Shown in pieces: positions 27,983 through 59,145 of a DNA stretch of 64,000 nucleotides; position 1 is the first letter of the stretch; the number at the start of each line of letters is the position of its first letter. The notes under the pieces were generated by a model. It was given only the letters and a program-made list of their open reading frames with translations. It searched no databases and was not told the origin of the DNA. The position numbers and the translations under genes were made by a program. The stretch comes from Achromobacter insolitus (GTDB lineage: Bacteria > Pseudomonadota > Gammaproteobacteria > Burkholderiales > Burkholderiaceae_B), in NCBI RefSeq assembly GCF_002209555.1, contig NZ_NJIF01000003.1, positions 186,001 to 250,000 on the forward strand, in the 5' to 3' direction.

Positions 27983-29095
27983 ATGGCCGCCGAAAGGCGG
28001 CCGTGTCTATGCGACGTGCCCAAGAAAACGCCTCAGACGCCACTTTCTGCCATCTTCTCATCCGCCGCGCACTGGTTGCGCTGGCTGTGCGCGCCAGTGT
28101 GGCTGCTGGCGCTGGCGACCGAAGCCAAATCCTTCAAAGACAATCCCATTCTAGGTAGCCGCCGGCTGAACCGCGCTGGCCTGCATATCGGCCGCGTGCG
28201 GCTGGCGCAATGCATGGCCGACCGCAGGCGCAAACGCTTGGCGCACCTGCTCAATGATCAGGACCGTCAGGATTTCGACCGCAACGGTTTCATTCTGAAG
28301 TCCGACTTCCTGCCTCCGGCCACTTTTGCCTTAGTGGAACGGGAGTTGACGCAGTGCAATGGTCAGGTGCGAGCGATGGAGCAGGGCGACGCGATCACCC
28401 GTCGCATGTCGCTGGACGCGGGCACGCTCAAGCGCATGCCCGCGACGCGCCAGCTGCTGCAAGGCAAACAATGGCTGGGGCTGCTCAGCTACGTTGGGTC
28501 GTTCCGCTGCCACCCCATGAATTACCTGCAGACCATCCAGGCCCGCGCGGGCCAGGGAAGGGCAGACCCACAGCTCCAGCTGCATTCCGACACTTTCCAT
28601 CCCACGGTAAAAGCCTGGCTTTTCCTGAGCGACGTAGGCGTGGAGGACGGCCCCTTTACCTATGTGCCCGGATCACACCGCGTCAACCGCCGTCGACTCG
28701 CGTGGCTGCGCCGCCAATCCATCGACGCCCGCAGGCTCGACCGGCTGAGCGCCCGCGGCTCGCTACGTGTGTCGCGGGCGGCGCTGCGCCGCATGGGCTA
28801 CCCCGAGCCGCAAGCCTTCGCTGTCAAGAAAAACACCTTAGTCGTCGCGGACACGTCGGGCTTCCATGCGCGCGGCGAAAGTCGCCAGGCCTCCACCCGG
28901 ATCGAAATCTGGGGGTACGGCCGCCGCAATCCTTTCCTGCCATGGACCGGTTGGGACATTCAAGGTTTGCCGGGCGTGAAGGGACGGACCGTTCCGCTCT
29001 ATTGGCGCGCCCGGGATATAGGCGAGGCCCTGGGCCTGCGTCGTAATCCATGGCGTCGCGTCCCCTCTGACAAGGCAGGCCATGAATCGCAGTGA
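27983..29095 (+). CDS. Phytanoyl-CoA dioxygenase-like Fe(II)/2-oxoglutarate oxygenase
   Basis: Up to 370 residues with the double-stranded beta-helix facial triad: His201 and Asp203 in QLHSDTFHP, distal His295 in TSGFHARGE with Arg residues just after it for 2-oxoglutarate. YVPGSHRVNRRRLAWLR also fits the PhyH family. The family hydroxylates fatty acyl chains or small metabolites next to a carboxylate. It opens the capsule operon and its end overlaps the SDR gene by 14 bases, so a hydroxylation of the capsule-linked lipid is a fair inference. ATG27983 lies inside a hairpin and lacks a clear ribosome site, so GTG28016 (VPKKTP) is a possible true start. A hydrophobic stretch at about residues 31-47 (WLRWLCAPVWLLALA) may tether it to the membrane. 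Confidence 0.75.
   Translation: MAAERRPCLCDVPKKTPQTPLSAIFSSAAHWLRWLCAPVWLLALATEAKSFKDNPILGSRRLNRAGLHIGRVRLAQCMADRRRKRLAHLLNDQDRQDFDRNGFILKSDFLPPATFALVERELTQCNGQVRAMEQGDAITRRMSLDAGTLKRMPATRQLLQGKQWLGLLSYVGSFRCHPMNYLQTIQARAGQGRADPQLQLHSDTFHPTVKAWLFLSDVGVEDGPFTYVPGSHRVNRRRLAWLRRQSIDARRLDRLSARGSLRVSRAALRRMGYPEPQAFAVKKNTLVVADTSGFHARGESRQASTRIEIWGYGRRNPFLPWTGWDIQGLPGVKGRTVPLYWRARDIGEALGLRRNPWRRVPSDKAGHESQ
27985..28002 (+). promoter_or_regulatory. GNRA hairpin over the 5' end of the dioxygenase gene
   Basis: GGCCGCC (27985-27991) and GGCGGCC (27996-28002) form a perfect 7-base-pair stem closed by a GAAA tetraloop. It begins directly after the ATG at 27983 and would hinder ribosome entry there. Confidence 0.5.
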
Positions 29096-29876
29096 AGCCC
29101 GTGAATCCGGTTTTCCGCGTTGTGTGCTGATCACTGGCGCGACAGGCGGCATCGGCGGCGCCTTGGCCTTGGAGTACGCGGCGTCCGGGGCCAAGGTACT
29201 CATCCTGCAGGGACGCAACGCTGAGAGATTGAGCCAGTTGCGAGACGCCTGCGAGGTTCTCGGCGCGCGCGTCCTCACCCAGGTCCTGGACGTGCGCGAC
29301 CATGACGCGTTGATGGCCTGGCTGGCAGCGGTTTGCGAGACCGAAATGCCGGAGCTCGTTATCGCCAATGCGGGCGTCAATATCAATACCGGGCCACAAC
29401 AGCAAGGCGAAGACTGGCACGACGTGCATCGCCTGCTCGATGTCAACGTCAAAGCAGTGTTCGCCACCGTGCACGGCGTGCTGCCCGCGATGCGCAAGCG
29501 CGGCCATGGCCAGGTTGCCCTGATCAGTTCTTTGGCCGCCTGGCGCGGCTTGCCTGAAACGCCCAGCTACAGCGCCAGCAAAGCCGCCGTAAAGGTATAC
29601 GGCGAAGCCATGCGCGATGCCCTGAGCGACGAGGGCATACGCTTTAACGTCATCATGCCCGGCTACGTCGAATCCCAGATGTGCTTCGACATGCCCGGCC
29701 CCAAGCCATTTCTGTGGAAGGCCGACAAGGCCGCCCGCGTCATCCGGCGCGGCCTGCAGGCCAACCGTGCGCGTATCAGCTTCCCGTTCCCGTTGAACCT
29801 GGGTTGCTTCCTGCTGTCGGTCATCCACCCCGCGGTATCCGGTTGGATACTGAAAAGGCTGGGCTACGGTGATTGA
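29082..29876 (+). CDS. Capsule-associated SDR (RkpH/WcbP-like)
   Basis: A 264-residue short-chain dehydrogenase with TGATGGIGGALALEYA, NAGVNINTG, SSLAAWRGLPETPSYSASK (Tyr163, Lys167) and a hydrophobic C-terminal tail (FPLNLGCFLLSVIHPAVSGWILKRLG) that may anchor it to the inner membrane. Similar membrane-tailed SDRs occur in capsule loci as RkpH (Sinorhizobium) and WcbP (Burkholderia), next to RkpI/WcbQ as here. In a lipid pathway it could reduce the 3-keto group made by the AONS-like enzyme at 50193, as 3-ketosphinganine reductases (also SDRs) do. That role is inferred. It overlaps its neighbours by 14 and 8 bases. Confidence 0.85.
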   Translation: MNRSEARESGFPRCVLITGATGGIGGALALEYAASGAKVLILQGRNAERLSQLRDACEVLGARVLTQVLDVRDHDALMAWLAAVCETEMPELVIANAGVNINTGPQQQGEDWHDVHRLLDVNVKAVFATVHGVLPAMRKRGHGQVALISSLAAWRGLPETPSYSASKAAVKVYGEAMRDALSDEGIRFNVIMPGYVESQMCFDMPGPKPFLWKADKAARVIRRGLQANRARISFPFPLNLGCFLLSVIHPAVSGWILKRLGYGD

Positions 29877-31503
29877 CGCGTTCTGGATCCCGCTGCTTCC
29901 GCCTTACCTGATCGGATTGGTGCTGTCGTGGGCAATCGAAATCCTGCTGACGCCCCGGCCCGTGGCGCCATGGCGCCGACCCGCCGCCGCTCTGGGCGTG
30001 CACGTGGGTGTGTGGACGTTGGCGTTCGCGCTGGAACTTGCTCTTTTCCGGCGGCCGTACTTTGGCGTAGCCAACGTGCTGGCGATCCAACTGTTGATTG
30101 TGCTGGTCAGCAACGCCAAGTACCACGCTTTGCGCGAACCCTTTGTTTATCCAGATTTTGAATATTTCACCGACGCCATCAAGCACCCTCGGCTGTATTT
30201 GCCGTTCTTCGGTTTGATGCGGGCATTGGCCGCGGGGGGCGGGTACGGCGCTGCATTGTGGGCAGGGCTGGCATTGGAAGATTCGGTCACTGCCGGGGCG
30301 GGAATCTGGCTGGTGTCGTTTGCAGAATTGCCGCAGGAGCACATGTTCGACCCCACGGCCCCCGTTGTGCCGTTCTTTGCCCATACCTTCGCGTTGGCGG
30401 CTAGCGGCCTGGTGCTGGCCATCACCGCAGGTAGACGAATTCTTGTTGCATTCCACGCATCGGACGATCTGCAGCGGCTCGGATTGATGGCTGCGCTCTG
30501 GGCATATGGCCGTAGCGAGCGTCAATCCAGCTCCGAGCTGCGCGCCCAAGCCCCGTTTGCCAATGTCCAAGCTCCGAAGGTCCTGCCGGACCCTCTGCCC
30601 GACCTCATCGTTATACAGAGCGAGTCCTTCTTCGACGCGCGACGCGCATACCCGGACCTGCTGCGCCAGGACATCCTGGCCAATTTCGACTTGCTCAAAT
30701 CGGAAGCCGTCGCGCACGGCCAGTTGAAAGTGGCGGCATGGGGCGCGAACACGGTGCGCACAGAATTCGCGTTTCTTAGCGGGATGGGCCCGGAGGCGCT
30801 GGGCATCCATCAATACAACCCGTATCGCAAGCTGGCGGGGCAGGGGATGCCAACCGTCGCGTCATATTTGAAATCGCTTGGCTATCGCACGGTGTGTGTA
30901 CATCCGTACCACCGTAGTTTTTACCGGCGAGACAAGGTGTTGCCACTGCTTGGATTCGACGAGTTCATCGGTATCGAAGCGTTTCAAGACGCCCAAAGGG
31001 ACGGACCGTATGTCGGGGACAGGGCGCTGGGGGAGTACGTCGTACGAATGCTCCAGGAGCGATCCGACAGGCCGTTGTATGTCCACGTGATCACCATGGA
31101 GAACCACGGCCCCTTGCATTGGGAGCACGTCGATCCGACCAATGTGGCGGACGTCCTTGAGGGCCCATTGCCTGTAGCGTGTCGGGACTTGGTTGCCTAT
31201 GCCCGACACTTGCGCAACGCGGATGAAATGCTGGGGTACCTCCGGACCAGAGTTTTGGAACGCCGCGCGCCAGCGCTACTTTGCCTGTTCGGGGACCACG
31301 TACCGATCATGCCGTCAGTCTACAAAACGATTGGCGCACCGGAAGGGACGACAGATTACGTCATATGGGGCACAGCTAGCCGATTCGCGGGCGGGGTGCC
31401 GCCTCAAGATTGCAGTGTTGCCGATCTTGTGTACACGTATCTATCAACTACGAACTTGCTACGCAAACAGGGCACGTTCCCCTTTGCAGTCAATTTCGAT
31501 TAG
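29869..31503 (+). CDS. LTA-synthase-like membrane enzyme (RkpI/WcbQ-like)
   Basis: A 544-residue protein starting with GTG. About five membrane segments fill residues 5-190, followed by an alkaline-phosphatase/sulfatase-type domain: DLIVIQSESFFD, GANTVRTEFAFLSGM with a likely nucleophile Thr (Thr295 or Thr298), VHVITMENHGPLH and LLCLFGDHVPIMPSVY with the metal-binding D-H. The family includes LtaS, MdoB and phosphoethanolamine transferases, which move head groups on the periplasmic side. Capsule loci with RkpI or WcbQ carry the same type. It may modify the capsule lipid or sugar with a phospho-group; the donor is unknown. The last gene of a GC-rich translationally coupled trio; DNA becomes AT-richer right after it. 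Confidence 0.82.
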   Translation: MIDAFWIPLLPPYLIGLVLSWAIEILLTPRPVAPWRRPAAALGVHVGVWTLAFALELALFRRPYFGVANVLAIQLLIVLVSNAKYHALREPFVYPDFEYFTDAIKHPRLYLPFFGLMRALAAGGGYGAALWAGLALEDSVTAGAGIWLVSFAELPQEHMFDPTAPVVPFFAHTFALAASGLVLAITAGRRILVAFHASDDLQRLGLMAALWAYGRSERQSSSELRAQAPFANVQAPKVLPDPLPDLIVIQSESFFDARRAYPDLLRQDILANFDLLKSEAVAHGQLKVAAWGANTVRTEFAFLSGMGPEALGIHQYNPYRKLAGQGMPTVASYLKSLGYRTVCVHPYHRSFYRRDKVLPLLGFDEFIGIEAFQDAQRDGPYVGDRALGEYVVRMLQERSDRPLYVHVITMENHGPLHWEHVDPTNVADVLEGPLPVACRDLVAYARHLRNADEMLGYLRTRVLERRAPALLCLFGDHVPIMPSVYKTIGAPEGTTDYVIWGTASRFAGGVPPQDCSVADLVYTYLSTTNLLRKQGTFPFAVNFD

Positions 31504-31698: not shown

Positions 31699-32805
31699 AT
31701 GATCAACTTCGAAAAGATTAAGTCGAAACGCCTTGCGGTGTGCCTGGTGGCTATACCGATGTTGCTGGCCCTTGTCTATTACAGTTTCTTCGCTCTGGAT
31801 CGTTATGTCAGCGTGGCGCAAGTTGCCGTGCGCCAAGTGGGTAATAACGAAACCCCACAAATTCCCGGGCTGGCTGTAATGCTCAGTGGATTGAATCCGA
31901 CGTCTCGGGAAGAAACGCTATATCTACGTGAATTCCTCACGTCGCAGGATATGCTGAACGTGCTCCAAGAAAAACTCAATTGGTCGGAGCACTATTCTGA
32001 ACGCTGGCGCGATCCCTTGTACTGGCTGTTTGCGGATGCAGCGCGTGAAGAGTTGCTGAAATTCTATCAGCGTATGGTTGTCGCGCATTTTGATGAGCAA
32101 ACGGGCTTGCTGAGCGTTGAAGTTCAGTCTTTCGATCCTGACTTTGCCGAGCAGACGTTGCGGGTAATGCTGAGTGAGAGCGAGCGATTCGTGAATGAGC
32201 TGTCGCACCGTATGGCCCGTGATCAGATGGCGTTTGCGCAGGGGGAATTGGCAAAAGCTCGCCAAAACTATGAAGAGCGCCGAGAGGCAATGCTCGCATT
32301 TCAAAGCAGCAATAACCTGTTGGATGCCGAGGCAGCGGCAAAAGCGCGCGCGGACGTGATTGCAGAACTGGAGGCAAATCTTACTAAAGAGCGAACTACC
32401 CTCAAGGGGATGCTCGCGACGCTCGACTCGAGTACGCCGCAAGTTCGTCAGCAGCGCAATCGTATCAGCGCCATGGAGCAGCAACTCGCAGCAGAAAGCC
32501 GGCGCCTGCTGTCACAGAAAGGCGGCGACAAGCTGAACGTCGTGGCCTCGTTGTATCGCAATCTCTCCATTGATGCCGCGATTGCGGAAGAGACATACAA
32601 GTTCGCGGTGAGCTCCGTCGAATCCGCGCGCATCGAGGCCAGCAAAAAGCTACGGAGCTTGGTAACGATCGTGTCGCCCAATATGCCGGACAAGGCAATC
32701 TACCCCGAACGCATATATAACTTGGTAACGCTACTTATTGCGTTGCTTTTGTTCTACGGAATTGCGCGTTTTGTGATCGCCACGATCGAAGATCACCGTG
32801 ATTGA
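31699..32805 (+). CDS. kpsE: Capsule export inner-membrane protein KpsE (PCP family)
   Basis: A 368-residue protein with an N-terminal membrane segment (LAVCLVAIPMLLALVYYSFFAL), a long helical coiled-coil periplasmic region (about 150-280, e.g. GELAKARQNYEERREAMLAF), and a C-terminal membrane segment (LVTLLIALLLFYGIARFVI). PEVELIP-like sequence is replaced by SPNMPDKAIYPERIY near the second segment, as in KpsE/CtrB/WcbD. KpsE couples the KpsMT pump with the outer-membrane channel. The stop overlaps the frame of the next gene; the lipoprotein start lies 17 bases later. No clear ribosome site is seen before ATG31699. Confidence 0.9.
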   Translation: MINFEKIKSKRLAVCLVAIPMLLALVYYSFFALDRYVSVAQVAVRQVGNNETPQIPGLAVMLSGLNPTSREETLYLREFLTSQDMLNVLQEKLNWSEHYSERWRDPLYWLFADAAREELLKFYQRMVVAHFDEQTGLLSVEVQSFDPDFAEQTLRVMLSESERFVNELSHRMARDQMAFAQGELAKARQNYEERREAMLAFQSSNNLLDAEAAAKARADVIAELEANLTKERTTLKGMLATLDSSTPQVRQQRNRISAMEQQLAAESRRLLSQKGGDKLNVVASLYRNLSIDAAIAEETYKFAVSSVESARIEASKKLRSLVTIVSPNMPDKAIYPERIYNLVTLLIALLLFYGIARFVIATIEDHRD

Positions 32806-32822
32806 TATTTAACATCGATCTT

Positions 32823-33926
32823 ATGAAAACCAGAAAAACTCGTTTTACTCTCCGCGTTGCCGCGCTATGTCTGCCACTCGTTCTTGCAGGATGCGGTAGT
32901 CTGCTTTCCTCCGCGGGGCCCTCGCGTTATGCCGTGATGAACAGCGACGAGGCGCAAAACTACACGTTGGTAGATCTGACGGCAGAGACTATCGCGCCAT
33001 ACATGAGGCCTCGTGAGACCGACCTGGAGGTCTCTGTCGCATTGCCGAAGGTGCCGGAGGTGAGATTGGTGCCCGGAGACGTGCTCAGGGTGATGATCGC
33101 CGAGAGTGTCGTGGAAGGGGCTGTGTTTGCTCCGCTTGCTACCGGTGGAACTGTGTTCGACAACGTGAGAGTCGACAGTCAGGGAACGATCTCGCTGCCA
33201 TACATCGGCCGGCAGACCGTTGCCGGAAAGAGCCCGCTCGAGGTTGAGACGCTGATCCGCAAGAAGCTGAAAGGGGTGACGACGGATGCTCAAGTGCAAG
33301 TCGGCCTCACTGGCGATCTCTCGGGTTCCGTACTCGTTGCAGGGGCGGTGAAGGCGCCCGGTCGTTTTTCGGCCCTGGAAGGTCCCCTGACCCTCTTGGA
33401 CGCCATTAACCGTGCAGGCGGACCGTTGCTTGAACCACATCTCATCCGTGTGGTCGTTCGCACGGGGAAGAAGTCATATGAATTCAATTATCAGGATCTG
33501 CTGTCAGGCAAGAACCAAGTGGTACCGCCGGGCGCCGAGGTCGTGCTGGAACGCGCACGCAAGCGATTTGTCGCCATGGGCGCTGTCGGAGATCCGGGCC
33601 TCCATGACCTTCCGTCCAACAATCCCAGCCTCTTGGAAGTGCTTGGATCGGTAAAGGGCCTGAGCGAGGTAAAGGCGGATGCGGCGGGCGTATTCGTTTT
33701 CAGATTGATCGACGAAAAAAATCCGGAAACGGGAGAGATATCGCCCAAGGCGGAAGTGTTTCGGTTGAACTTGAAGGAACCCGCGGCAATGTTTTTGGCC
33801 CGACAATTTCTCATACAACCCGAGGATGCGATCTACGTAACGAACGCCGCAGTCTATGAGTGGCAGAAGATCATTTCCCCGATCGTTCAGGTTCTGGTGT
33901 TGGGCCGAACGATTGAGTCTTTTTAG
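32823..33926 (+). CDS. kpsD: Capsule export outer-membrane lipoprotein (KpsD/Wza/CtrA-like)
   Basis: A 367-residue lipoprotein. With ATG32823 the lipobox LVLAGC puts the lipidated cysteine at residue 24. A polysaccharide export domain follows (VRLVPGDVLRVMIAESV ... VRVDSQGTISLPYIGRQTVAGKSPLEVETLIRKKL) and then SLBB-like beta-grasp repeats (GSVLVAGAVKAPGRFSALEGPLTLLDAINRAGG). Oligomers form the outer-membrane portal for the capsule. The size is closer to CtrA/WcbC (about 380) than to E. coli KpsD (about 560). The frame is open from 32802, but the earlier residues lack a signal peptide form. Confidence 0.9.
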   Translation: MKTRKTRFTLRVAALCLPLVLAGCGSLLSSAGPSRYAVMNSDEAQNYTLVDLTAETIAPYMRPRETDLEVSVALPKVPEVRLVPGDVLRVMIAESVVEGAVFAPLATGGTVFDNVRVDSQGTISLPYIGRQTVAGKSPLEVETLIRKKLKGVTTDAQVQVGLTGDLSGSVLVAGAVKAPGRFSALEGPLTLLDAINRAGGPLLEPHLIRVVVRTGKKSYEFNYQDLLSGKNQVVPPGAEVVLERARKRFVAMGAVGDPGLHDLPSNNPSLLEVLGSVKGLSEVKADAAGVFVFRLIDEKNPETGEISPKAEVFRLNLKEPAAMFLARQFLIQPEDAIYVTNAAVYEWQKIISPIVQVLVLGRTIESF

Positions 33927-33951
33927 TTAAGCTCCAGCAAGCGCGAATTTC

Positions 33952-34737
33952 ATGCAGAAGAGAAGGCCCTTCAAAATTCTACGATCGGTCCTGTTCGCTC
34001 TGGTAATCAGAGAGGTGCGGGGAAAGTTCGGAGCAAACCGGTTGGGTGCGTTTTGGTTCGTGTTTGAGCCGCTCGCGCATATTATTGTGCTGTTGACAAT
34101 ATTTACCCTGGTAAGGGGTGAAACACACTACGGCCCCCCGCTGCCGATGTTTCTGGTCACGGGCATAATTCCGTTCATTCTCTTTAAGAATATAGCCCTA
34201 AAGGGGATGGAAGCCGTCGCGGCAAATAAAGCGTTGTTTGCATATCGTCAGATAAAACCGTTTGACACGATAATCGCCAGGGTGATCGTCGAATGCGCCC
34301 TGATGGCCTGCGTTTATATCGCGATTAATTTTGTCTTGGGATTCTGGCTTGGTTACGACGTAGCAATCCACTATCCTTTGAAGTGGATTGCTGTGTTCCT
34401 GACGGGAATCATGTTCTCCACCGGGTTGGCATTGATCTTCTGCGTGATTGGTGAGGCGTTGCCAGAACTGAAGAGCTTCATAAAAATACTTTTCATGCCT
34501 CTCTACTTCATGTCTTGCGTCATCGTGCCGCTTTGGGTGATCCCGGCCAAGTTTCGTGAATGGTTATGGTGGAACCCGCTCTTGCACTTGGTCGATGGGG
34601 TGAGAGAGGCGACTTTCCTGCATTATCCAAAAATCAATGGCGTCAGTATTACTTATGCCGCCTCAGCGGCTTTGGTAACGCTATTTGTCGGAATCACCCT
34701 CTACAGATTCCGGCGAGAACAGTTGCAAGCAATATGA
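33952..34737 (+). CDS. kpsM: Capsule ABC transporter permease KpsM
   Basis: A 261-residue ABC-2 type permease with about six membrane segments and the family opening IREVRGKFGANRLGAFWFVFEPLAHIIVLLTIF, then MFLVTGIIPFILFKN and VDGVREATFLHYPKI near the end. With KpsT it flips the lipid-linked capsule polymer through the inner membrane. The stop codon overlaps the kpsT start by four bases (ATGA), so the two are translationally coupled. Confidence 0.94.
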   Translation: MQKRRPFKILRSVLFALVIREVRGKFGANRLGAFWFVFEPLAHIIVLLTIFTLVRGETHYGPPLPMFLVTGIIPFILFKNIALKGMEAVAANKALFAYRQIKPFDTIIARVIVECALMACVYIAINFVLGFWLGYDVAIHYPLKWIAVFLTGIMFSTGLALIFCVIGEALPELKSFIKILFMPLYFMSCVIVPLWVIPAKFREWLWWNPLLHLVDGVREATFLHYPKINGVSITYAASAALVTLFVGITLYRFRREQLQAI

Positions 34738-35390
34738 TCGAATTACGCTCCGTCAGCAAATCGTACCGAACCCCCCGGGGGAGGAAATACGTTTTTCGGG
34801 ATTTGTCCTTCGTTATTCCGCCCGACAAGAATGTTGCGATCATTGGGAGGAATGGTGCCGGCAAGTCCACGCTTATGCGACTTTTGGGGGGGCAAGACTC
34901 GCCTGATTCGGGAAAAATAATAACGACAAATACAATTTCGTGGCCGGTCGGTTTGAGCGGCGGGTTTCAGGGCTCGATGACAGGTCGTCAGAATGTCAAG
35001 TTTGTGGCGCGTGTGTATGGCGCTGAACGAGAACGCATGGCAGAGGTGGTGAAGTATGTAGAGGACTTTGCCGAGCTCGGCGAGTACTTTGACCAACCGG
35101 TGAATACGTATTCGTCGGGCATGCGAGGGCGGTTGGCGTTCGGGTTAAGCATGGCATTTGATTTTGATTATTATCTGGTTGATGAGGCCATGTCGGTAGG
35201 TGATGCAAGTTTCAAGAAGAAGGCGACTATCGAGTTCAGCAAAAGGACGCATAGAGCCAACCTTCTCCTGGTCACGCACGGCATGACGCAGGTCCGTTCG
35301 CTATGTGACATCGTTCTGCTGTTGAATAACGGAAAAGTCGAACAGTTTGACAATGTGGAAGAGGGCATAGCTGCGTACACCGCGCTTTAG
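34734..35390 (+). CDS. kpsT: Capsule ABC transporter ATPase KpsT
   Basis: A 218-residue ATPase beginning MIELRSVSKSY. Walker A is GRNGAGKST, the signature is YSSGMRGRLAFGLSMA, and the Walker B region is YYLVDEAMSVGD. An H-loop (LLVTHGM) follows. Length and the YSSGM form of the signature are typical of KpsT/CtrD/Wzt2 capsule exporters that lack a C-terminal sugar-binding domain. The start ATG34734 overlaps the kpsM stop, so the longer in-frame extension is not used. Confidence 0.95.
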   Translation: MIELRSVSKSYRTPRGRKYVFRDLSFVIPPDKNVAIIGRNGAGKSTLMRLLGGQDSPDSGKIITTNTISWPVGLSGGFQGSMTGRQNVKFVARVYGAERERMAEVVKYVEDFAELGEYFDQPVNTYSSGMRGRLAFGLSMAFDFDYYLVDEAMSVGDASFKKKATIEFSKRTHRANLLLVTHGMTQVRSLCDIVLLLNNGKVEQFDNVEEGIAAYTAL

Positions 35391-35470
35391 GATGAGCTGC
35401 CTTTTCACGCGATATTTTTGGTCGTTCATTTGCTCGACGACCACACGAGAATTGCCGGGATCAAATCTTT

Positions 35471-42058: not shown

Positions 42059-42175
42059 ATTGGCGTCGTTACCACTTGCGTGTCGTTCGTTCATTCCAGA
42101 TCTGTCGATTAACGGAAATCTTATTGTTTTCAATTGATCAATTCGTTGGTAAACGAGTTGGTTTAGGATTTTAAT

Positions 42176-46852: not shown

Positions 46853-46872
46853 GGTTTTGTACGTCGATGGAA

Positions 46873-48078
46873 CTAATAGAGTAGTTTTCGCAGTGAATTC
46901 TTCACGGACAGGTCGATCCCCGGCTTGCAATAGAATCCACCGTTGATCTGAGTATCATGGATGACCACATTTCTGAAGCTCTTGAAGAGTTGCATATCGG
47001 GCCGCTGCTGGTGATGCCAGAACTCGTCGAGGCTTCGTTGATCGGTAAGACCCGGCATGTTGTAGATCGCCCGGCCTAGCGCTTTCGTGGGCTTGCCGTG
47101 CAGCAATGCAGACGCGCCTACCGTGCTGTTTACCGTTACTACCGCCTTGCTGCCGTTGATCAGGGCCGGCAGGTGCCCCCCGTCGATATAGACAACACGG
47201 CCGCCTAGCGCTAGCTCTTTGCTCAAGCGGCGAATATGTTTTGCATAATTAATCAGACCCGGGTCTAAGGGGTGGGCTTTGATGAGCAGTAGCGTATTTG
47301 GGGGGGCATGGAGCGCGAAGGAGCGAACCACCGTGTCGATAACATGCTTCATGCTATCGAACTCAGAATGATGAATGATCTGTGCGTCGGTCGTGAGTTG
47401 AAGCGGGAAGAGGTAGTAAGGCGGATTCGTCGCGTGCGCAACTCTAGCCTGTATGACCTGGGCCCTTCGGCGACTGACACGACTGCCTAAGCTCTTGCGA
47501 AGGTAGTTGACGTACTCAGTGGCCGGACTATAGGGCACATGGCTTTTCACGCCCCGATGAAGCACGGGGTTCAGCCCTGCCCAGAAGTTGTAGCCCACGT
47601 CATACGCAGCTCGTTTCCAGAATGGCGAGATGAAGGGCATGCCGTTGTCGTACTCTGGAACTTCCTTCGCCCGTTTCCGGTAGTAATCTGGATCAGCGGG
47701 CAAGCCCGAATAGCCGTTTACCCCACCTCGTTCCAAGGTTATCCAATACGGGCGGAAATAGCCTTCTTCGAAGACATGAACTCTCACTCCCGCCTGTGCG
47801 GCAAGTTCAATTGCGGGTCGATGAACAGGGCGGCAGTCACCGAAGAGGACCAAATCAGTTGTCCCGTGGTGCTCGAACTCGCGGCGGTAGAACGCCGGAA
47901 GGTTTTCCATGGGCCCACGGTACGAGATAGCGCCGCCCTGGCGCCAGTACACACGGTCGCCAACGGTGAAATTCACCTTTCGAACGAGTCCACCTTCCTG
48001 TCGCAGTCCCTTCGCCAAGCTCGGGAAAAAAGGCGAACACACCCCTTGCAAGAACAAAAAACGCTGTCTTTTGTTCAT
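46873..48078 (-). CDS. kpsS: Capsule beta-Kdo transferase KpsS
   Basis: A 401-residue KpsS/LipB-type protein ([108 protein letters not shown]). KpsS adds the first beta-linked Kdo to a lysophosphatidylglycerol acceptor and KpsC extends it, in known group 2 capsules. ATG48078 overlaps the kpsC stop (ATGA), which fixes the start and implies coupling. Homologues in capsule loci with rkpA-type synthases (WcbO, RkpJ) may use a different lipid. Confidence 0.92.
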
Positions 48079-50141: not shown

Positions 50142-50192
50142 AAGCGTAGTTCTAGGTCTGGCGGTTAACGGTGAAGAGGGTGTCGCGCTGTC

Positions 50193-51533: not shown

Positions 51534-51540
51534 TTCTTGC

Positions 51541-54500
51541 CTACTGGATCATGCGTTGCTTGGGAAGGCTGCCGTTGAGTTTGATTTCATCGACGAATTC
51601 AGACACCGAGGCAGACGTGACCTCGGCAGCGTGGTGGGCGACGACTTGCTGAACGCTGGCTGCGACGGCGTCGCCAGCCTCATGTTCGTCGCGCAGCAGC
51701 AGCACCAGCCGTTCGGCGAGCTTGGCCGGCGTGGGGCTCTCATTGAGCGCCATGACCGGCAGACGGATGCCGAATCGGTTCTCCAGTGCCACGACCAGCT
51801 CCACGCCCATGAGCGAGTCCAGCCCCATGTCGTAGACCGATCGAGTCGCTTCGATCTTGTCGGGCGCCACGCGCAGGATTTCCCCGATCTCGGCCTTGAG
51901 CATTTCGGTAAAGCGTTCGTGCAGGGCGGCATCGTCAAGCGTGGCGATCAGGTGGGCGATGTCGTCCGCGTTACTGTCGTCGTCACCGCCGTCGCCGGCG
52001 TGGCGGGCAATGTCGGAGAACTTGGGCAGGCCTGCGGTGGGCAGGAAGCGGCTCAAAGCGCGCCAGTCCAGTTCCAGCACGCCCAGGCCGGAAGCGTTGG
52101 ACGCAATCATGGCACCCAGAGCGTCCAGGGCGACCTGGGACGCGAGCGCGCCACCGCCCATGCGGCCTTGCAGGGCCTCCTTGATTTTCTCATTGCGAGC
52201 CAGGAAGCCGACGTCATCGATCGCGCCCCAGCGCACGCAGGTCGCGGGAAGGCCTTCCGCGCGGCGTTGGGCGGCCAGGCGTTCCAGCCAGGCGTTGGCG
52301 GCGACGTAATTGCTTTGTCCCGGGTTGCCGAATAGCGTGGTGGCAGAGGAGTAGCAGATGAACAGATCCAAGGGCAGGGCACGCGTAAGTTCATGCAGGT
52401 GCTGGGCGCCCAGCACCTTGGCGGCCAGGGTGCGGTGGATCTGCTCGGCCGTGGCGCTGCGGGCCAGGCCGTCGTCGATGACGACGGCAGCGTGGACCAC
52501 GCCCTTTAGCGGAGGCATCGTGGCTGCCGTCTGCGCCAGCACGCTGGCCAGCGCGGCGCGGTCGGTGACGTCGCATGCCGCCGCGTGCACGCGCACGCCC
52601 TGGGCTTCGAATGCAGTGATGGCAGCCTGCGCGGCCTCGCTGGCCGGGCCGCTACGGCTGATCAGGATCAGGTTGCGCGCGCCGTGATCCGCCAGCCACT
52701 GCGCCGTACGGAGGCCGAAACCGCCCAACCCGCCGGTAACCAGGTAGCTGGCGTCGGCCGGCAGCGTCAGGCCGCTGGCGGCTTGCGTTGCGACCTGATG
52801 GACGCTGCTGATGCCATTGCGGTAGGTAACGACGATCTTGCCGATCTGTCTGGCCTGCTGCATGTACCGGAAGGCGTCAACGATGTCGTTGGCGTCGAAG
52901 ACGGTGTAGGGCAGCGGATGCAGCGCGCCTTGACGGAAGAGCGCCATCATTTCCGCGAACAGGCGCTGGGTGAGTTCGGGGCGCTCGTTCATCAACTGAT
53001 CGGCGTCTATGCCGAAGTAGCTGATGTTGTTGCGGAAGGGGCGCAGGCCGATACGGGTGTTCTCGTAGAAGTCCCGCTTGCCCAATTCGAGGAATCGGCC
53101 GAATGGCTTGAGCACGCGCAGGTTGCGGTTGACGGCTTCGCCCGCCAAGGAATTGAGCACGACGTCCACACCGCGGCCATCGGTGTCGGCGAGGATTTCG
53201 TCAGCGTAGGACAGCGAGCGGGAGTCGTAGATATGCCGCACGCCCAGCAGGCGCAGCAGGTCGCGCTTTTCGTCCGAGCCTGCGGTGGCGTAGATTTCCG
53301 CGCCCAGCCATTGGGCGAACTGGATGGCCGCTATGCCGACACCGCCCGCGGCGCCGTGGATCAGGATCTTCTCGCCTTCTTCCAGGCGCGCAAGGTGATG
53401 CAGTGCGTAGTAGACCGTGAAGAAGGTGCTGGGGATGGTCGCCGCGGCTTCGAACGAGAAGCCATCGGGTATATGCGAGATGGCGCTGGGGCGGGTCAGG
53501 ACGCGGTCGCCGAAGCTGGCCGGGCCGAAGCCGACCACGGCATCGCCTTCCTTGTAGCCGACGGCATCGGGGCCGACGCGAGTGACCGTGCCGGCGAATT
53601 CCAGGCCCAGCGTCGGGCCGGCGAACCCGTTTTCGATGGCCTCGTCGGACAGCAGGCCCAACGCATACATCACGTCGCGGAAGTTCAGGCCCGTGGCTTC
53701 GATCCGCACTTCCAGCTGGTCGCCGGCGGGCGCAGGGGCGGCGCAGGCTTCCCAGCGCAGGTTGCGCAATTGCCCGGGGAACTCGAAGCCCAGGCGCACG
53801 GCCTGCGCCTCGGCAGCTGCGGGGGTGGCGGCGGCGGGGCGGGAGACGACCCGCAAGCGCGGGACATAACGTTCGCCGCCGTCACCAAGCAGCACCTCGT
53901 CTTCGTCGTCCGCGCAGGTCAGTTCGCGGGCCAGGGCATCCGCCATGCGACCGGCCTGCGCCAGCGGCACGTCAACCATGCGGATACGGAAGTTGGAGGC
54001 CTCGTTGGCCAGCGTGCGGCCATAGCCCCATAGCGACGCGTCATTGAGCGCATGCATATTGGCGGCTTGCGGCTCGGCGCGCAGATACTGAGCCGCGTCG
54101 GCCGTGATGAGCCATACCGTTGCCGGCACTTGCAGACGTTCGCACGACTGGATGATGGCGGCAGCCAGGGCGCATCGTTGCGTCTGCTTTGCCAGCAGCG
54201 CGTCCGGCGTTTCGTGCGTATCTGTCCAGGCCAGGCGCTGCAGGTGCACCACGTGCTGTACCGGGCCCGCGGCATCGTCTGCGAGCAGGCTGTCCAGTGT
54301 CTGCGGCGTGACGCCGGTTTCCAGGCGGACCCGATGGCCGGCGGCGTTCAGGCGGGCCTGCAAGGCTTGGGCGAGGCCGGCGCCTTGTTCAGGATTGCGA
54401 TCGGCCAGGATCAGCCAGTGAGCGGGCTCGCTCGTCGCCACAGCTGGCGTTGCAACAGGCTCAGCGTCCAGCCGGGCGGTCAGCAGATAGGCGCCGGTGG

Positions 54501-57500
54501 CCGGCGATTGCGTGAACTCCAGGCAGTCGCCGCACAGCAGGCCGAGGGTTTCAAGCTCCGCCTGCCAGAACCCGGCGGGTTGCTGAGTCGAGAGTTGTTC
54601 GCCTTGTTCGCCAGCTTGCCACCATTCCTGACGGCCGCCGAAGACGAAATCCGCCCACGATGCCGGATGGGCGCCGCAGAACAACAGGATGCCGCCGGGG
54701 CGCAGGCTGGCGCGGGCGTGCTTGAGCGCCTTGCGGGTTACGTCCAGCGTATCGAAGTCGGAATGGAAGATGACCAGGTCATGGCACGGGAGCGCGCCTT
54801 CGGCCGCGTCGCCGATAGGCTGGATGCTGGCGTTGGGGTAGCGCTCGGCATGCTGGTGGCTGACGTGCTCCAACATATCGGCGTTGGTCGACGCGTAGCA
54901 ATAGTCGGCCACATTGAAGTCGAGCGTGTCGCAGCAACTGAAATTGAACAGCGGCGCGGCCCCGCTCACTTCCATGACCGCCAGGCGCTGGCCGGGCAGG
55001 CGCGCGGCCTGGGCCTGAGCCAGTGCGGCGCGCAGGGACGTGCCCAGGCGTTGGCCGCTGGCGGCGCCCAGCAGGCTGTGGTTGATGACGGCCGGCGTGG
55101 TGGCGCGCGGGCAGATATCGTCAAAGGCGGCTTCGCCGCGCAGCAAGGCGGGCAGGTGCAGGCCGATCCGGCCGACCGCGTGGACGATCTGCGCATAGTC
55201 GGGATACTCGCGCAGCAGCGTATTCCAGATGTCGCTGGTACCGCCTTCGCCGCCGTCGCTGGCGGGCAGGTCCAGGCCGGACGTCTGGGCCTCGACATAG
55301 CCAGCAGCGGTCAGGCGATCGACGATGTGCTGCAGGAGCGGCGCGGATTCCGGCGCATGGCGGCCCAGTTCGGTGATCAGGGCCTGAGGCACATGCTTGC
55401 CGTCAGGCGCGATCTCGCGCAGCGCATCAAGCGCAAAGCTGTAGCACAGGCTTTCAAGGAGCGGATCGACCTCTTCCGCGTAGCGCGCGTGCGACCCGCT
55501 GTCGCGGCATTGCTCGATAGCATCTGCCAACGCGGCGCGCAGTCCGGCGCCATCGATCGGATTAGGGCCAAACGGCGTCTGCGGACGCGGCGTGGCGACG
55601 GTGTCAAGAAAGCTCAGATGGTCGGCCGCGGGTTTGCGCAGGCGGATGCTGCGGAAGCGGGCCTGTTCCACGGCGGCGATCTGCACGCCTTCGGCGTTGT
55701 AGAGCTCGAAGCTGGCCGTGAGGGAATGCGGCGCGCGGCGTTCCAATCGTACACGCGCCGCAGCAGGCTGGCCGGCGTTGGCGCGCAGGCTCAGGCGTCC
55801 GATCTTGGACGGCACGTAGGCAATGCCAAGATGCATCGCCGGGTCGTTCCTGAGCAATTGGATGATGAGCTGGAAAGCACAATCCAGCAGGGCGGGGTGC
55901 AGGCGCGTGGCGTCGAGTTCGCCAGCAAGGCTGGGGTCCGCTTCCAGCACGGCGAGCGCGCTGGTGTCGGATTCCAGCCACCCATGTTTCACTGCCTGAA
56001 AGCCCGGGCCGTAGTCCAGGCCTACCGCGCGCGTTAGCGCGTTGTGGCTCTCGCCGGTGAAATCGGGCGGACGCTCGGGCAACAGCAACGCCAGCTGCGT
56101 AAGGCGGGACAGGCGGGGCTCGCGCAGCAGGCGGCCGCTGGCGTGCTTGACCCAGGGCTCGGTGCTGCCGGAGTCTTTGGCAGTGATGCGGAAGCGGCCG
56201 TCGCTGTCATCGAGCAGGAAGCGCGTGACCTTGCTGGGCGCGGCGTTGAGCAGCAGCGGCGCATGGATCTCGAGTTCTTCGAGTTCGGCGCCGTCGCCGT
56301 CTTGCCAGCAAAGCGCGGCCGCCAGGGCGATTTCGGCGAAGCCCGTGCCGGGAAAAACGACTGCGTCGCCAACAACGTGGTCAGCCAGCACCGGGTGGGA
56401 TTGCGTATCCAGCCGGTTTTCCCAGGTGTGCTCATGCTGCTGCATGGGGTAGCCCAACAGCGGATGCACCTGGCGGCGCGTGAGCAGGCCGAGGGATTCG
56501 GTGGTAACGGGATGCCAGTAGCGTTCGCGCTGCCAGGGGTAGGTAGGCAACTCGACCGGAGACCCGGTCCAGGGGAACAGCGACTGCAGGTCCAGATGGC
56601 CGCCGCTGACGATAACCTGGCCGGCGGCGTTCCAGATCTTTTCGGGATCGTCTCCGCCGCGAGTGGCGGTGCTCAGCACGCGGCCTTGCTGGTCCGCGGT
56701 CTTGAGGGCGTCATTGAGATACGAACGCAGTACCGGATGGGGGCCGACTTCAACGTAGATATTGTTGCCTTCGGCGGTCAACTGGTTTGCGGCCTGCTCG
56801 AAGCGAACGGCCAGGCGCACGTTGCGCCACCAGTAGTCGGCGGTCAATTCGGCGCCGTCCAGGAGCGCGCCCGTGACCGTGGAATAAAAAGGCACGGCGC
56901 CCGAGCGCGGCTGGATGTCCGCCAACGATTCGCGGATTCCGGCTTCGATGCTATCCATCGCCGGACTATGGAAGGCGTAATCCAGATCCAGGCGGCGATG
57001 GAACAGCGATTGTTCCGCCAGCGCTGCCTCGAGCACGTCCAGGGCTTCGGGAGATCCGGCGACGGTGGCGCCGCGGCTGCTGTTGAAGCCGGCCACGCAC
57101 AGGTTGGCGCCGAGCTTGTGTTCCGTAATGAGCGCCAGGGTTTCTTCGCCGCTGATGCCGACGGCGGTCATGCGGCCCTGGCCCCTGGTCTGGCCTTGCA
57201 GGCGGCTACGCTGGAAGATGACGCGAACCGCGTCGGGCAGGGTCAGCGCGCCACTCGCCCAGGCGGCGGCCACTTCGCCGACGCTATGGCCGATCACCGC
57301 GGACGGCACGACGCCGCGCTGCGCCAACATGCGGGTAATGCCGACCTGCAGGGCGAACAGCGCCGGCTGGGCGACTTCGGTGCGCACATAGCGGTCGTCG
57401 CCGTTTTCACCGGCGAGTTCCTTGCGCAGCGAGAAGTCGGCATAGCCGGAGAACAACGAGTCCACTTCATCGATGGCTGCAGAGAAGACGGGATCCGCAA

Positions 57501-59145
57501 GCAGGCGGCGTCCCATGTTGGCCCACTGCGAGCCATTGCCGGAATAGACGAGCACCGGGCCGCGAGCGGCGGGCAGGGCGCTGCCCTCGACGACGCCGGA
57601 TTTAGTGTCGCCGCCCTCTGCAAATTGCTGCAGCAGGTCGGCGACGGCGTTGCATTGGGTGCCGAAGACCACGGCGCGCTCGTTGTGCCAGTCGCGGCGC
57701 ATGGCGGCGTGGTACGCGGCGTTGTACAGGAACTTGGCGGGCTGGTCGCGCAGGGTCTGGGCCATCAAGCCGGCTGCGTCTTTCAGGGCCTGGGCGGACT
57801 TGCCCGAGACCACGACGGGAATCGGCGCGGTCTTTGCCATCTTGCCTTCGGCGGCAGGACTTGCGGGCGCGGCGCTCTCGAGGATTACGTGAGCGTTGGC
57901 GCCGCCAAAGCCGAACGAGTTCACGCCCACCACCAGCTTGCCGCTGGGGCGCAGCTTGCGGTTCTGGGTGACGACGTCCAGGTTCCAGTCCTGGAACTCG
58001 ATTTTGGGGTTGAGGGTCTTGATGCCGATGGTGGCAGGCACTTCCCGATGCCGCAACACGTAGAGCGCCTTGACCAGCCCGGCCACGCCCGAAGCGGCCT
58101 CCAGGTGGCCCAGATTGCTTTTTACCGAGCCGATGGGCAGGGGAGTCTGCTTGCCGCGGGGCTGGCCCAGAGCTAGCCCGATCGCGCGCGTTTCGATCGG
58201 ATCGCCGACCGCGGTGCCCGTGCCGTGCGCTTCGAGGTAGTCGATATCCGCGGGCGAAATGCCGGCCTGTTCGTAGGCCTGGCGCATCAGGGCGGTCTGG
58301 GCGTCGACGCTGGGGACGGTCAGGCCGGACTTGCGGCCGTCCGTATTGACGGCGGTACCGGCGACCACGGCCAGGATATTGTCGCCGTCGGCGACGGCCT
58401 GGTCATAATCCTTCAGCAGGAACACGCCACCGCCTTCGGAACGCACGTAGCCATCGCCCGACGCATCGAAAACATTGCAGCGGCCGCGAGGCGACAGCAT
58501 GGACGCCTTGGAGAAGGTGATGAATCCGTAAGGATGCAGGTGCAGGCTGACTCCGCCCGCCAGCGCCTGGGTGCATTCGCCGGAAACGATTGCGCGGCAG
58601 GCCTGGTGGAATGCGACCAGGGACGACGAGCAGGCCGTGTCCATGGCGATGCTCGGTCCGCGCAGGTCGAAGAAGTACGACAGCCGGTTCGCGGCGATGC
58701 TGGCGGTGTTGCCGGTTGCCATGGAGGCGTCGACGGCGCCCAGGTCTTCGGCCATGCGGTAGGCGTAGTCGGAACTGGCGATACCGATATAGACGCCGCA
58801 ATTGGAGCCACGCAGGGTGGACGGCGGGACGCCGGCGTCTTCCATGGCTTCCCAGCTCATTTCCAGCAGCAGGCGCTGTTGCGGATCCATCAAGGCCGCT
58901 TCACGCGGGGAAATGCCGAAGAACCCGGCGTCGAAGCCGGCGACATCTCCAATCGAACCGGCGGCGAATGTATAGGCGGTGCCGGGATGCTCTTTGGCGG
59001 GGTGCAGGTACGCGTCGCTGGACCAGCGGTCTTGGGCGACCTGTGTCACCAGGTCGCGGCCTTCAAGCAGAGCTGGCCAGTAGCTGTCATTGGTGGTGCT
59101 GGGGAATCGGAACGAAAGTCCGATAACGGCAACGCGCTTACGCAT
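51541..59145 (-). CDS. Type I polyketide/fatty acid synthase of the capsule locus (RkpA/WcbR-like)
   Basis: A 2534-residue single-module synthase. Order: KS (about 1-430; Cys172 in DTACSSS, HGTGTAVGDP, NLGHLEAASG); AT (about 520-840; Ser621 in GHSVGE); DH (about 890-1170; His923 in HVVGDAVVFPG, Asp1088 in LLDCAFQ); a methyltransferase-like stretch (about 1240-1560; RPGGILLF kept but the SAM loop worn to MEVSGAAP); ER (about 1790-2110; LNFRDVMYALG, HGAAGGVGIAAIQ); KR (about 2130-2310; VTGGLGGFGL, Tyr2280 in SNYVAANAW); ACP (Ser2444 in GLDSLMG). All reductive domains are present, so it should make a saturated acyl chain by repeated use. No thioesterase is seen; the AONS-like enzyme encoded next probably takes the chain off. 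AAGGA at 59152-59156 is the ribosome site. RkpA and WcbR have the same length class and context. Confidence 0.93.
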   Translation of the reverse strand: MRKRVAVIGLSFRFPSTTNDSYWPALLEGRDLVTQVAQDRWSSDAYLHPAKEHPGTAYTFAAGSIGDVAGFDAGFFGISPREAALMDPQQRLLLEMSWEAMEDAGVPPSTLRGSNCGVYIGIASSDYAYRMAEDLGAVDASMATGNTASIAANRLSYFFDLRGPSIAMDTACSSSLVAFHQACRAIVSGECTQALAGGVSLHLHPYGFITFSKASMLSPRGRCNVFDASGDGYVRSEGGGVFLLKDYDQAVADGDNILAVVAGTAVNTDGRKSGLTVPSVDAQTALMRQAYEQAGISPADIDYLEAHGTGTAVGDPIETRAIGLALGQPRGKQTPLPIGSVKSNLGHLEAASGVAGLVKALYVLRHREVPATIGIKTLNPKIEFQDWNLDVVTQNRKLRPSGKLVVGVNSFGFGGANAHVILESAAPASPAAEGKMAKTAPIPVVVSGKSAQALKDAAGLMAQTLRDQPAKFLYNAAYHAAMRRDWHNERAVVFGTQCNAVADLLQQFAEGGDTKSGVVEGSALPAARGPVLVYSGNGSQWANMGRRLLADPVFSAAIDEVDSLFSGYADFSLRKELAGENGDDRYVRTEVAQPALFALQVGITRMLAQRGVVPSAVIGHSVGEVAAAWASGALTLPDAVRVIFQRSRLQGQTRGQGRMTAVGISGEETLALITEHKLGANLCVAGFNSSRGATVAGSPEALDVLEAALAEQSLFHRRLDLDYAFHSPAMDSIEAGIRESLADIQPRSGAVPFYSTVTGALLDGAELTADYWWRNVRLAVRFEQAANQLTAEGNNIYVEVGPHPVLRSYLNDALKTADQQGRVLSTATRGGDDPEKIWNAAGQVIVSGGHLDLQSLFPWTGSPVELPTYPWQRERYWHPVTTESLGLLTRRQVHPLLGYPMQQHEHTWENRLDTQSHPVLADHVVGDAVVFPGTGFAEIALAAALCWQDGDGAELEELEIHAPLLLNAAPSKVTRFLLDDSDGRFRITAKDSGSTEPWVKHASGRLLREPRLSRLTQLALLLPERPPDFTGESHNALTRAVGLDYGPGFQAVKHGWLESDTSALAVLEADPSLAGELDATRLHPALLDCAFQLIIQLLRNDPAMHLGIAYVPSKIGRLSLRANAGQPAAARVRLERRAPHSLTASFELYNAEGVQIAAVEQARFRSIRLRKPAADHLSFLDTVATPRPQTPFGPNPIDGAGLRAALADAIEQCRDSGSHARYAEEVDPLLESLCYSFALDALREIAPDGKHVPQALITELGRHAPESAPLLQHIVDRLTAAGYVEAQTSGLDLPASDGGEGGTSDIWNTLLREYPDYAQIVHAVGRIGLHLPALLRGEAAFDDICPRATTPAVINHSLLGAASGQRLGTSLRAALAQAQAARLPGQRLAVMEVSGAAPLFNFSCCDTLDFNVADYCYASTNADMLEHVSHQHAERYPNASIQPIGDAAEGALPCHDLVIFHSDFDTLDVTRKALKHARASLRPGGILLFCGAHPASWADFVFGGRQEWWQAGEQGEQLSTQQPAGFWQAELETLGLLCGDCLEFTQSPATGAYLLTARLDAEPVATPAVATSEPAHWLILADRNPEQGAGLAQALQARLNAAGHRVRLETGVTPQTLDSLLADDAAGPVQHVVHLQRLAWTDTHETPDALLAKQTQRCALAAAIIQSCERLQVPATVWLITADAAQYLRAEPQAANMHALNDASLWGYGRTLANEASNFRIRMVDVPLAQAGRMADALARELTCADDEDEVLLGDGGERYVPRLRVVSRPAAATPAAAEAQAVRLGFEFPGQLRNLRWEACAAPAPAGDQLEVRIEATGLNFRDVMYALGLLSDEAIENGFAGPTLGLEFAGTVTRVGPDAVGYKEGDAVVGFGPASFGDRVLTRPSAISHIPDGFSFEAAATIPSTFFTVYYALHHLARLEEGEKILIHGAAGGVGIAAIQFAQWLGAEIYATAGSDEKRDLLRLLGVRHIYDSRSLSYADEILADTDGRGVDVVLNSLAGEAVNRNLRVLKPFGRFLELGKRDFYENTRIGLRPFRNNISYFGIDADQLMNERPELTQRLFAEMMALFRQGALHPLPYTVFDANDIVDAFRYMQQARQIGKIVVTYRNGISSVHQVATQAASGLTLPADASYLVTGGLGGFGLRTAQWLADHGARNLILISRSGPASEAAQAAITAFEAQGVRVHAAACDVTDRAALASVLAQTAATMPPLKGVVHAAVVIDDGLARSATAEQIHRTLAAKVLGAQHLHELTRALPLDLFICYSSATTLFGNPGQSNYVAANAWLERLAAQRRAEGLPATCVRWGAIDDVGFLARNEKIKEALQGRMGGGALASQVALDALGAMIASNASGLGVLELDWRALSRFLPTAGLPKFSDIARHAGDGGDDDSNADDIAHLIATLDDAALHERFTEMLKAEIGEILRVAPDKIEATRSVYDMGLDSLMGVELVVALENRFGIRLPVMALNESPTPAKLAERLVLLLRDEHEAGDAVAASVQQVVAHHAAEVTSASVSEFVDEIKLNGSLPKQRMIQ

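Follow-up and report, generated by a model that had tools for sequence, protein, structure and literature searches.

A capsule locus of Achromobacter insolitus that probably builds its own amino-lipid acceptor

The capsule locus described here, found in Achromobacter insolitus, carries genes for a polyketide-type synthase, a PLP (pyridoxal phosphate) enzyme, an SDR (short-chain dehydrogenase/reductase) and an LTA (lipoteichoic acid)-synthase-like enzyme around its kps genes. Our analysis suggests that the locus probably builds a dedicated amino-lipid, which would serve as the membrane acceptor of the capsule in place of (lyso)phosphatidylglycerol; that this lipid is sphingoid is something we infer. 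The proposal comes mainly from the behaviour of the two Kdo transferases across genomes, as the lineage of KpsS follows the lipid genes and that of KpsC does not, and from a group of genomes in which three glycosyltransferases accompany the same genes for lipid synthesis and export.

RESULTS AND DISCUSSION

Layout of the locus

The window (the whole stretch of 64000 nucleotides that was analysed, from a genome of 6.44 Mb) contains the lipid genes in two groups. On the forward strand are genes for a PhyH-family oxygenase (27983..29095; Pfam PF05721, E 1.4e-7), an SDR of the RkpH/WcbP type (29082..29876; Pfam adh_short) and an LTA-synthase/GacH-type phosphoglycerol transferase-like membrane enzyme of the RkpI/WcbQ type (29869..31503; Pfam Sulfatase, E 2.6e-32), with frames that overlap by 14 bases (PhyH/SDR) and 8 bases (SDR/LTA). 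They stand ahead of the exporter genes on the same strand, encoding KpsE (31699..32805; TIGR01010, E 1.8e-86, under the model cut-off), a KpsD-like outer membrane export protein (32802..33926; Pfam Poly_export), KpsM (33952..34737; NF050053, E 6.2e-55, under the model cut-off) and KpsT (34734..35390, a start chosen within the longest frame of 34560-35390; Pfam ABC_tran). On the reverse strand lie genes for a GT2 glycosyltransferase (44198..45511; Pfam), a member of the UDP-glucose/GDP-mannose dehydrogenase family (45572..46930; Pfam), KpsS (46873..48108; PF05159, E 2.9e-88), assigned by trees and alignment columns (S25, D170 and Y199) to a cassette-linked lineage, the dual beta-Kdo transferase KpsC (48075..50141; PF05159, E 3.4e-84), an AONS-family PLP enzyme of the RkpG/WcbT type (50193..51533; Pfam Aminotran_1_2) and a single-module type I synthase of the RkpA/WcbR type (51541..59145; Pfam domains).

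ORF and Pfam checks showed that the initial annotation had placed the five lipid-gene frames correctly, with the right strands and all of them intact; the gap between the PLP and synthase genes was recomputed as 7 bases, and the lipid genes do flank the kps genes, with KpsE/D/M/T (31699-35390) and KpsS/KpsC (46873-50141) between them. The set is thus split, PhyH-SDR-LTA standing ahead of kpsEDMT and synthase-PLP-KpsC-KpsS on the opposite strand approximately 15 kb from the LTA gene, and kpsS of the window is not contiguous with SDR-LTA. The locus also encodes two large proteins (35471-37189 and 37234-39129) for which Pfam gave nothing at E 0.001; the second has 27-39% matches in other cassette loci. 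The stretch 41225-44008 holds a frame resembling alpha/beta-hydrolases (E 0.008) and another, of 610 aa, whose GATase_7 match is below the threshold.

The lipid genes as a unit

A contig scan returned at least 552 relatives of the PLP enzyme, and the best 80 were kept as a locus set with 10-kb flanks. The synthase was detected in 78 of these best 80 of at least 552, in every case on the same strand and upstream of the PLP gene; the set was collected by the PLP gene, so that synthases without one are not visible in it. Within the flanks of the same 80 loci, the SDR was found in 36, the LTA-type gene in 35 and KpsS in 43. All 32 loci holding the last three showed them contiguous in the order kpsS-SDR-LTA, and KpsS was missing from the flanks in two of the 36 SDR loci and two of the 35 LTA loci.

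We also surveyed 397 genomes of the phylum with completeness of at least 90%, using thresholds of E 1e-80 for the PLP clade and E 1e-20 for PF05159 (KpsS/KpsC); these counts take two draws of 397 genomes as identical. The PLP (AONS) clade occurred in 26 genomes and PF05159 in 76; 19 genomes had the two together (odds ratio 15, p 6.7e-10). When a synthase at E 1e-200 was also required, 18 of 21 genomes held PF05159 (odds ratio 33, p 1.6e-11), or 18 of 22 if G189 is included, in which a weaker synthase adjoins the PLP gene and PF05159 is absent. As the lipid and kps genes are found together across many genera, their linkage is not due to chance. Two genomes, G403 and G161, have the synthase and PLP gene with neither PF05159 nor the glycosyltransferase trio described below in the stretches searched; G161 holds two synthase-PLP pairs (L188 and L193), one of them near KpsT/E/M.

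Additional genes were observed beside the unit in some loci. A plasmid of Pseudomonas sp. TMW 2.1634 (L256), typed as mobilizable, carries the lipid unit together with KpsS, kdsA, kdsB, kpsF and a GNAT gene, relatives of which occur in nine Pseudomonas loci and in L081. In Paraburkholderia dioscoreae pII (L279:29175-32169) an LpxC-family deacetylase gene lies between the synthase and PLP genes and a GNAT acyltransferase gene comes after, possibly representing extra N-acylation steps.

KpsS, but not KpsC, follows the lipid genes

According to passages in two papers on Escherichia coli (PMC10148158 and PMC11666461), KpsS attaches the first Kdo to (lyso)phosphatidylglycerol, and extension from there is the task of KpsC. 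If the cassette provided a different acceptor, KpsS would be expected to differ, whereas KpsC need not. The KpsS tree contained 72 of 99 rows, namely 24 positive and 32 negative G genomes and 16 of 43 loci picked for spread; genomes were labelled cassette-negative from the PLP search at E 1e-80 alone. A length cut-off of 300 aa was applied, with no row reported as dropped, and G215, which has the PLP clade and PF05159 without a synthase, was left out. Across these rows (40 with and 32 without the PLP clade) only three label changes were counted, compared with a mean of 23.8 after shuffling of the labels, and none of 500 shuffles was as low. Rows from many families grouped by the cassette, and the cassette-less G053, from the window's own family, grouped with the negatives.

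For KpsC, five of 50 candidates were shorter than 500 aa and were dropped (G093, G262, L037, L068 and L071). The tree of the other 45 gave ten label changes against a shuffle mean of 13.9, with 13 of 500 shuffles as low, a slight clustering by label. In a matched set of 40 rows, from which G398 and G354 (long KpsC branches) and G278, G307 and G339 (no KpsS row) were also removed, KpsS showed two label changes and KpsC eight. When the 27 positives were forced into one clade, the constraint was not rejected for KpsS (AU p 0.5) but was rejected for KpsC (AU p 7.6e-38). Both trees are quick searches without bootstraps; kinship inflates label-change counts, and the KpsC control therefore matters.

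The three KpsS columns that separated the groups best correspond to S25, D170 and Y199 of the window. Tyr199 was present in 66 of 67 pathway rows (23 of 24 G genomes and 43 of 43 loci, with at least one genome, G138 and L042, counted twice) and in none of the 32 other rows. KpsS from an E. coli plasmid grouped with the negatives and had none of the three residues, whereas those of Sinorhizobium meliloti, Shinella, Paraburkholderia, Methylobacterium and Pseudomonas, where a synthase is present, grouped with the positives. Thus, by trees and columns, the window has a KpsS that is not of the E. coli lineage, within a set in which KpsS, KpsC and KpsMTED are all present. A search of solved structures with KpsS gave no match.

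Four PLP-negative genomes (G408, G386, G476 and G398) fell on the side of the positives in the KpsS tree. Each carries an LTA homologue close to kpsS, and in G386 the two genes overlap by one base; no such homologue was found in the 19 kb examined in each of the ordinary negatives G180, G266, G053 and G093. The KpsS of a Cupriavidus sp. USMAA2-4 plasmid, which has no lipid gene in the 37 kb examined, belongs to the group of G398, as do those of two Novosphingobium plasmids and an Acidisoma plasmid, where LTA, SDR and sterol-desaturase-family genes lie in the same stretch. The Cupriavidus and G398 rows lack Y199, and the Novosphingobium and Acidisoma rows lack S25, D170 and Y199. Y199 follows the synthase-PLP pair, not the LTA-type gene. 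We also mapped the presence of the LTA-type gene onto the KpsS tree as a further marker, which gave three changes (34 LTA-positive and 11 LTA-negative rows, nine of the latter in one clade), but did not rely on it, because the LTA-negative label used E 1e-30 and the LTA-like genes of S. meliloti and Shinella, whose KpsS group with the clade of nine, reach only approximately 1e-29 to 1e-32.

On the Novosphingobium plasmid stretches (L278 and L283), the sterol-desaturase-family gene (PF04116, tested on one of them) is accompanied by SDR, LTA and KpsS genes, and neither a synthase nor a PLP gene was found there. Sphingomonads make sphingolipids by the ordinary sphingolipid pathway, and this pattern fits a lipid from that source; as their KpsS proteins lack S25, D170 and Y199, such lipids may differ from that of the cassette.

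A glycosyltransferase trio in the place of KpsS and KpsC

G107, G405 and G061 possess the synthase, PLP, SDR, LTA and KpsMTE genes, and KpsS/KpsC were not found in them apart from a weak PF05159 match on another contig in G405. Instead, they carry a trio made up of a GT4 enzyme, a 361-aa glycosyltransferase and a membrane GT2 enzyme, 60-71% identical between the genomes. The trio neighbours SDR-LTA in two of them (G405 and G061) and LTA in the third (G107). Two further genomes, Achromobacter sp. HZ34 and Bordetella sp. LUAb4, have it next to the PLP gene. Among the 23 cassette genomes searched, these were the only two lacking PF05159; the gene orders at their loci are SDR-LTA-KpsDMTE and trio-PLP-synthase, and the trio occupies the place that KpsS/KpsC take in the window. 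None of the five trio genomes has KpsS/KpsC adjacent, and none was found genome-wide in four of them, whereas both modules occur in Bordetella pseudohinzii. On plasmid p2 of Caballeronia insecticola RPE64 the trio lies approximately 14-20 kb from PLP and KpsDMTE genes. The trio was sought in fetched loci, and its GT2 alone also in the 397 phylum genomes, where it was found in one (G405), and in plasmids. With the trio joined to the same lipid and export genes and KpsS/KpsC missing, the lipid and the exporter appear to be the constant part of the system. The GT2 gave a GT21 Pfam match (E ~1e-8), but cellulose synthases were the best relatives in the PDB, and we make no claim that it is a ceramide glucosyltransferase.

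The initial annotation had offered two roles for the lipid, a replacement of the usual KpsS acceptor or a capsule cap. The first is supported by the split between KpsS and KpsC with respect to the cassette and by the presence of the trio on the same lipid genes, and a cap is the less likely role. It could still be argued that KpsS works on ordinary phosphatidylglycerol, as it does in E. coli, and that the cassette makes a separate envelope lipid or a cap and merely shares the operon. KpsS and KpsC are recognisable PF05159 members, the active site of the LTA-type enzyme is expected outside, and the solved E. coli group 2 acceptor is (lyso)phosphatidylglycerol in the parts of the reports concerned (PMC10148158 and PMC11666461). 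However, KpsS tracks the cassette and KpsC does not, kpsS adjoins SDR and LTA in each of the 32 loci with all three (among the best 80 of at least 552), and the cassette and exporter persist where KpsS/KpsC were not found. We therefore regard an ordinary acceptor as rather unlikely.

The synthase

Pfam matched KS (3-424), AT (532-843), DH (894-1168), ER (1790-2107), KR (2132-2310) and ACP (2416-2480) domains, in agreement with the earlier description of a complete single-module synthase, and a degenerate MT region at approximately 1330-1560 and a pseudo-KR precede the ER. To examine the motifs, 32 chosen loci were aligned with the window, giving 32 rows (the window and 31 relatives), as L185 yielded none. 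All 32 rows had the cysteine of the KS, HGTGT, the GHSVGE motif of the AT and the serine of the ACP. The motifs of the DH, ER and KR domains were retained in most of the listed forms, the DH showing some variation. In the interval between DH and ER, the expected methyltransferase site, the median identity was 25% and the SAM motif was not conserved. YAFH, which we take to be a malonyl signature, was found in 28 of the 32. A related IAFH has been read as malonyl in another synthase, in a passage of PMC3908369. From these domain motifs, the product reads as a straight, saturated acyl chain built from malonyl units. No thioesterase was matched by Pfam in the window synthase, and another protein should therefore release the chain. 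When plasmid DNA was searched for one end of the synthase gene, nothing matched.

An acyl chain of this kind might simply be supplied to an ordinary glycerophospholipid acceptor, with the PLP enzyme and SDR modifying the chain or acting elsewhere. An LTA-type enzyme near kpsS in the AONS-negative G386, G476 and G408 would agree with such a scheme, as would the fact that Y199 follows the synthase-PLP pair rather than LTA. Set against this, the thioesterase-less synthase precedes the PLP gene in 78 of the 80 loci (the best 80 of at least 552, themselves selected by the PLP gene), and we consider supply to a glycerophospholipid improbable compared with release of the chain by the PLP enzyme into an amino-lipid.

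The PLP enzyme

The PLP enzyme of the window, which shares 91-93% identity with its counterparts in five Achromobacter genomes, contains Lys299 and an HNS motif at residues 191-193. Its score was under the cut-off of every NCBIfam model concerned, with bioF the highest (331 bits against a cut-off of 426), KBL at 284 against 460, the SPT models at 269 against 640, 256 against 500 and 200 against 670, and ALAS at 232 against 339. Four relatives and the Acidisoma enzyme were likewise under the cut-offs for SPT, KBL, ALAS and BioF. In a tree of capsule enzymes and annotated BioF, KBL and ALAS proteins, which held no SPT rows, 19 capsule enzymes lay on one side of a branch with an SH-aLRT of 99, apart from BioF, KBL and ALAS. 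Six more rows fell on the same side, namely G189, G129 and four HNS-type enzymes with no synthase found beside them. The capsule enzymes read HN(S/C) where the BioF, KBL and ALAS rows read HAS (a Paraburkholderia row was left out of this reading, as the pattern matched another place), and N192 was invariant in ten of ten aligned relatives. By sequence, the capsule PLP enzyme is a family of its own and not BioF. Given sub-cut-off scores in all models and HNS instead of HAS, serine as its substrate is a guess.

That the PLP enzyme is a second BioF, with a synthase of biotin or secondary metabolism linked to the capsule by accident, is close to refuted: bioF does give the highest NCBIfam score at 331 bits, but that score misses the cut-off, the capsule clade is separate from BioF, KBL and ALAS and strongly linked to kps genes, and the only other family member elsewhere in the genome is a bioF-type gene (L002) already in its own biotin operon, next to genes whose translations read as bioA, bioH and bioC. 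Related PLP genes occur in other settings too. L113, L114, L116 and L118 (G311, G215, G426 and G354) form a sister group; their enzymes are of the HNS type, and no adjacent synthase was found. In Acidisoma a similar HNS-type gene, again with no synthase, is beside FA_hydroxylase, near LTA and KpsS.

The SDR, the LTA-type enzyme and PhyH

A C-terminal FPFPL stretch of the SDR is largely conserved. The LTA-type protein aligned with GacH, to which its similarity is weak (E 3.8e-11), and with the LTA primase. Residues E252, T295, H413, D476 and H477 were present in all 28 rows, the window included, and line up with the GacH catalytic positions; we take them to be the metal and nucleophile residues of LtaS/GacH. 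The enzyme was found in 32 of 36 cassette genomes in one set and in 19 of 35 in the G-genome set at E 1e-30, a cut-off likely to miss distant forms. G048 had no LTA-type gene in the 19 kb examined, with typical KpsS and SDR, and no recurrent replacement gene emerged from the LTA-less loci when eleven stretches were compared and ten proteins scanned. Catalytic domains of the LTA type face the periplasm, and KpsS is cytoplasmic. As five N-terminal membrane spans can be read from the sequence, placing the domain of the window protein outside, the head-group step would need a flip or would follow export, and it is the weakest step of the pathway.

PhyH had been put forward as the hydroxylating step of lipid synthesis, which is doubtful. 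In the window and in three of six other Achromobacter/Bordetella loci it adjoins the SDR (L247-L249 with PhyH, L250-L252 without it), whereas outside Achromobacter it mostly occurs with KpsC or Kdo genes. Within the 10-kb flanks of the best 80 of at least 552 loci, which can miss PhyH, it was found in five, all from Pseudomonas, and adjoins KpsC in four of the five. It also adjoins KpsC in the AONS-negative G266 and on one Novosphingobium plasmid, lies approximately 1 kb from kdsA on another, and on a Pseudomonas plasmid is next to the gene for a 709-aa capsular polysaccharide biosynthesis protein. Because of the KpsC and kdsA neighbours in Pseudomonas, Novosphingobium and G266, a sphingoid hydroxylase is disfavoured, and we lean towards an optional enzyme that may act on the Kdo linker or the glycan rather than on the lipid.

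A pathway for the lipid acceptor

We propose the following order of reactions for the dedicated amino-lipid. The synthase, working iteratively with malonyl units, would assemble an unbranched, saturated acyl chain on the ACP that it carries, as its conserved motifs suggest. The adjacent PLP enzyme, to judge from its family, would then release the chain by condensing it with an amino acid, for which serine is our favoured guess, to give a 3-keto-amine, and the SDR would reduce the ketone to an amino-alcohol. The LTA/GacH-type enzyme, in which the catalytic residues are observed, could add phosphoglycerol from phosphatidylglycerol and so produce a look-alike of lyso-phosphatidylglycerol, the reaction and its direction being putative. 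Finally, a KpsS lineage adapted to this lipid, as the observed co-variation points to, would add the first Kdo and KpsC would extend it, after which glycosyltransferases would build the chain and KpsMTED export it. In a minority of genomes, the glycosyltransferase trio would replace KpsS and KpsC on the same lipid.

More tentatively, ABC-exported capsules could fall into two lipid classes, one on phosphatidylglycerol and the other on a purpose-made sphingoid-type phospho-lipid, the second comprising the Y199 lineage of KpsS and a Kdo-free branch in which the trio would start the chain directly on the synthase-AONS lipid. A second anchor chemistry would then exist for capsules in many Proteobacteria, plant symbionts and opportunists among them, and the presence of a polyketide-type synthase in such capsule loci would be explained. 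The contrast between KpsS and KpsC, Y199 and the variants without Kdo transferases make direct tests of acceptor identity possible in rhizobia.

Comparison with known systems

In the open-licence literature searched, which included no search aimed at the trio, we did not meet the KpsS/KpsC contrast, the Y199 marker or the priming trio, and no structure of the rkp lipid was found there, in line with the earlier remark that the product is unsolved. A 2025 review on how capsules are attached (PMC12220298) was searched for rkp, wcb and sphing- words, and none was found. According to part of another review (PMC4881576), the products of rkp-1 are responsible for making, and also for modifying, a specific lipid carrier, and a paper on sponge symbionts (PMC3908369) treats, in the passages concerned, the wcb and rkp clusters as homologues centred on a type I synthase and WcbR/RkpA as a separate KS group.

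The E. coli group 2 capsule has KpsC, KpsS and the exporter in common with the window, and no gene of the lipid cassette was found in the part of the E. coli plasmid examined (7 kb). GacH and LtaS share catalytic positions with the LTA-type enzyme, although the similarity is weak. Among fungal systems, fumonisin Fum1/Fum8 and sphingofungin SphA pair a reducing synthase with an AONS-type releasing enzyme, and a chain named SphA gave a match in the PDB set (9pep; residues 128-436, E 8.7e-27). The fungal synthase-AONS systems are an analogy of mechanism only, as they make secreted metabolites and not capsule lipids. WcbT/P/Q of Burkholderia are presumably counterparts of the window genes.

The closest comparison is with rkp-1 on pSymB of S. 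meliloti Ak57, and the kinship proposed in the initial annotation holds. There, a synthase, a PLP enzyme (51% identical to that of the window), an annotated SDR, an LTA-like protein (33%) and KpsS (40%) follow one another in one direction, genes which, by their order, we take to be rkpA/G/H/I/J. The LTA-like match falls in a gap of the gene table, and the S. meliloti SDR was not matched by that of the window at E 1e-4. The pSymB set runs in one direction, whereas that of the window is split over two strands. The locus is a member of the rkp-1/wcb-type set, known but chemically unsolved.
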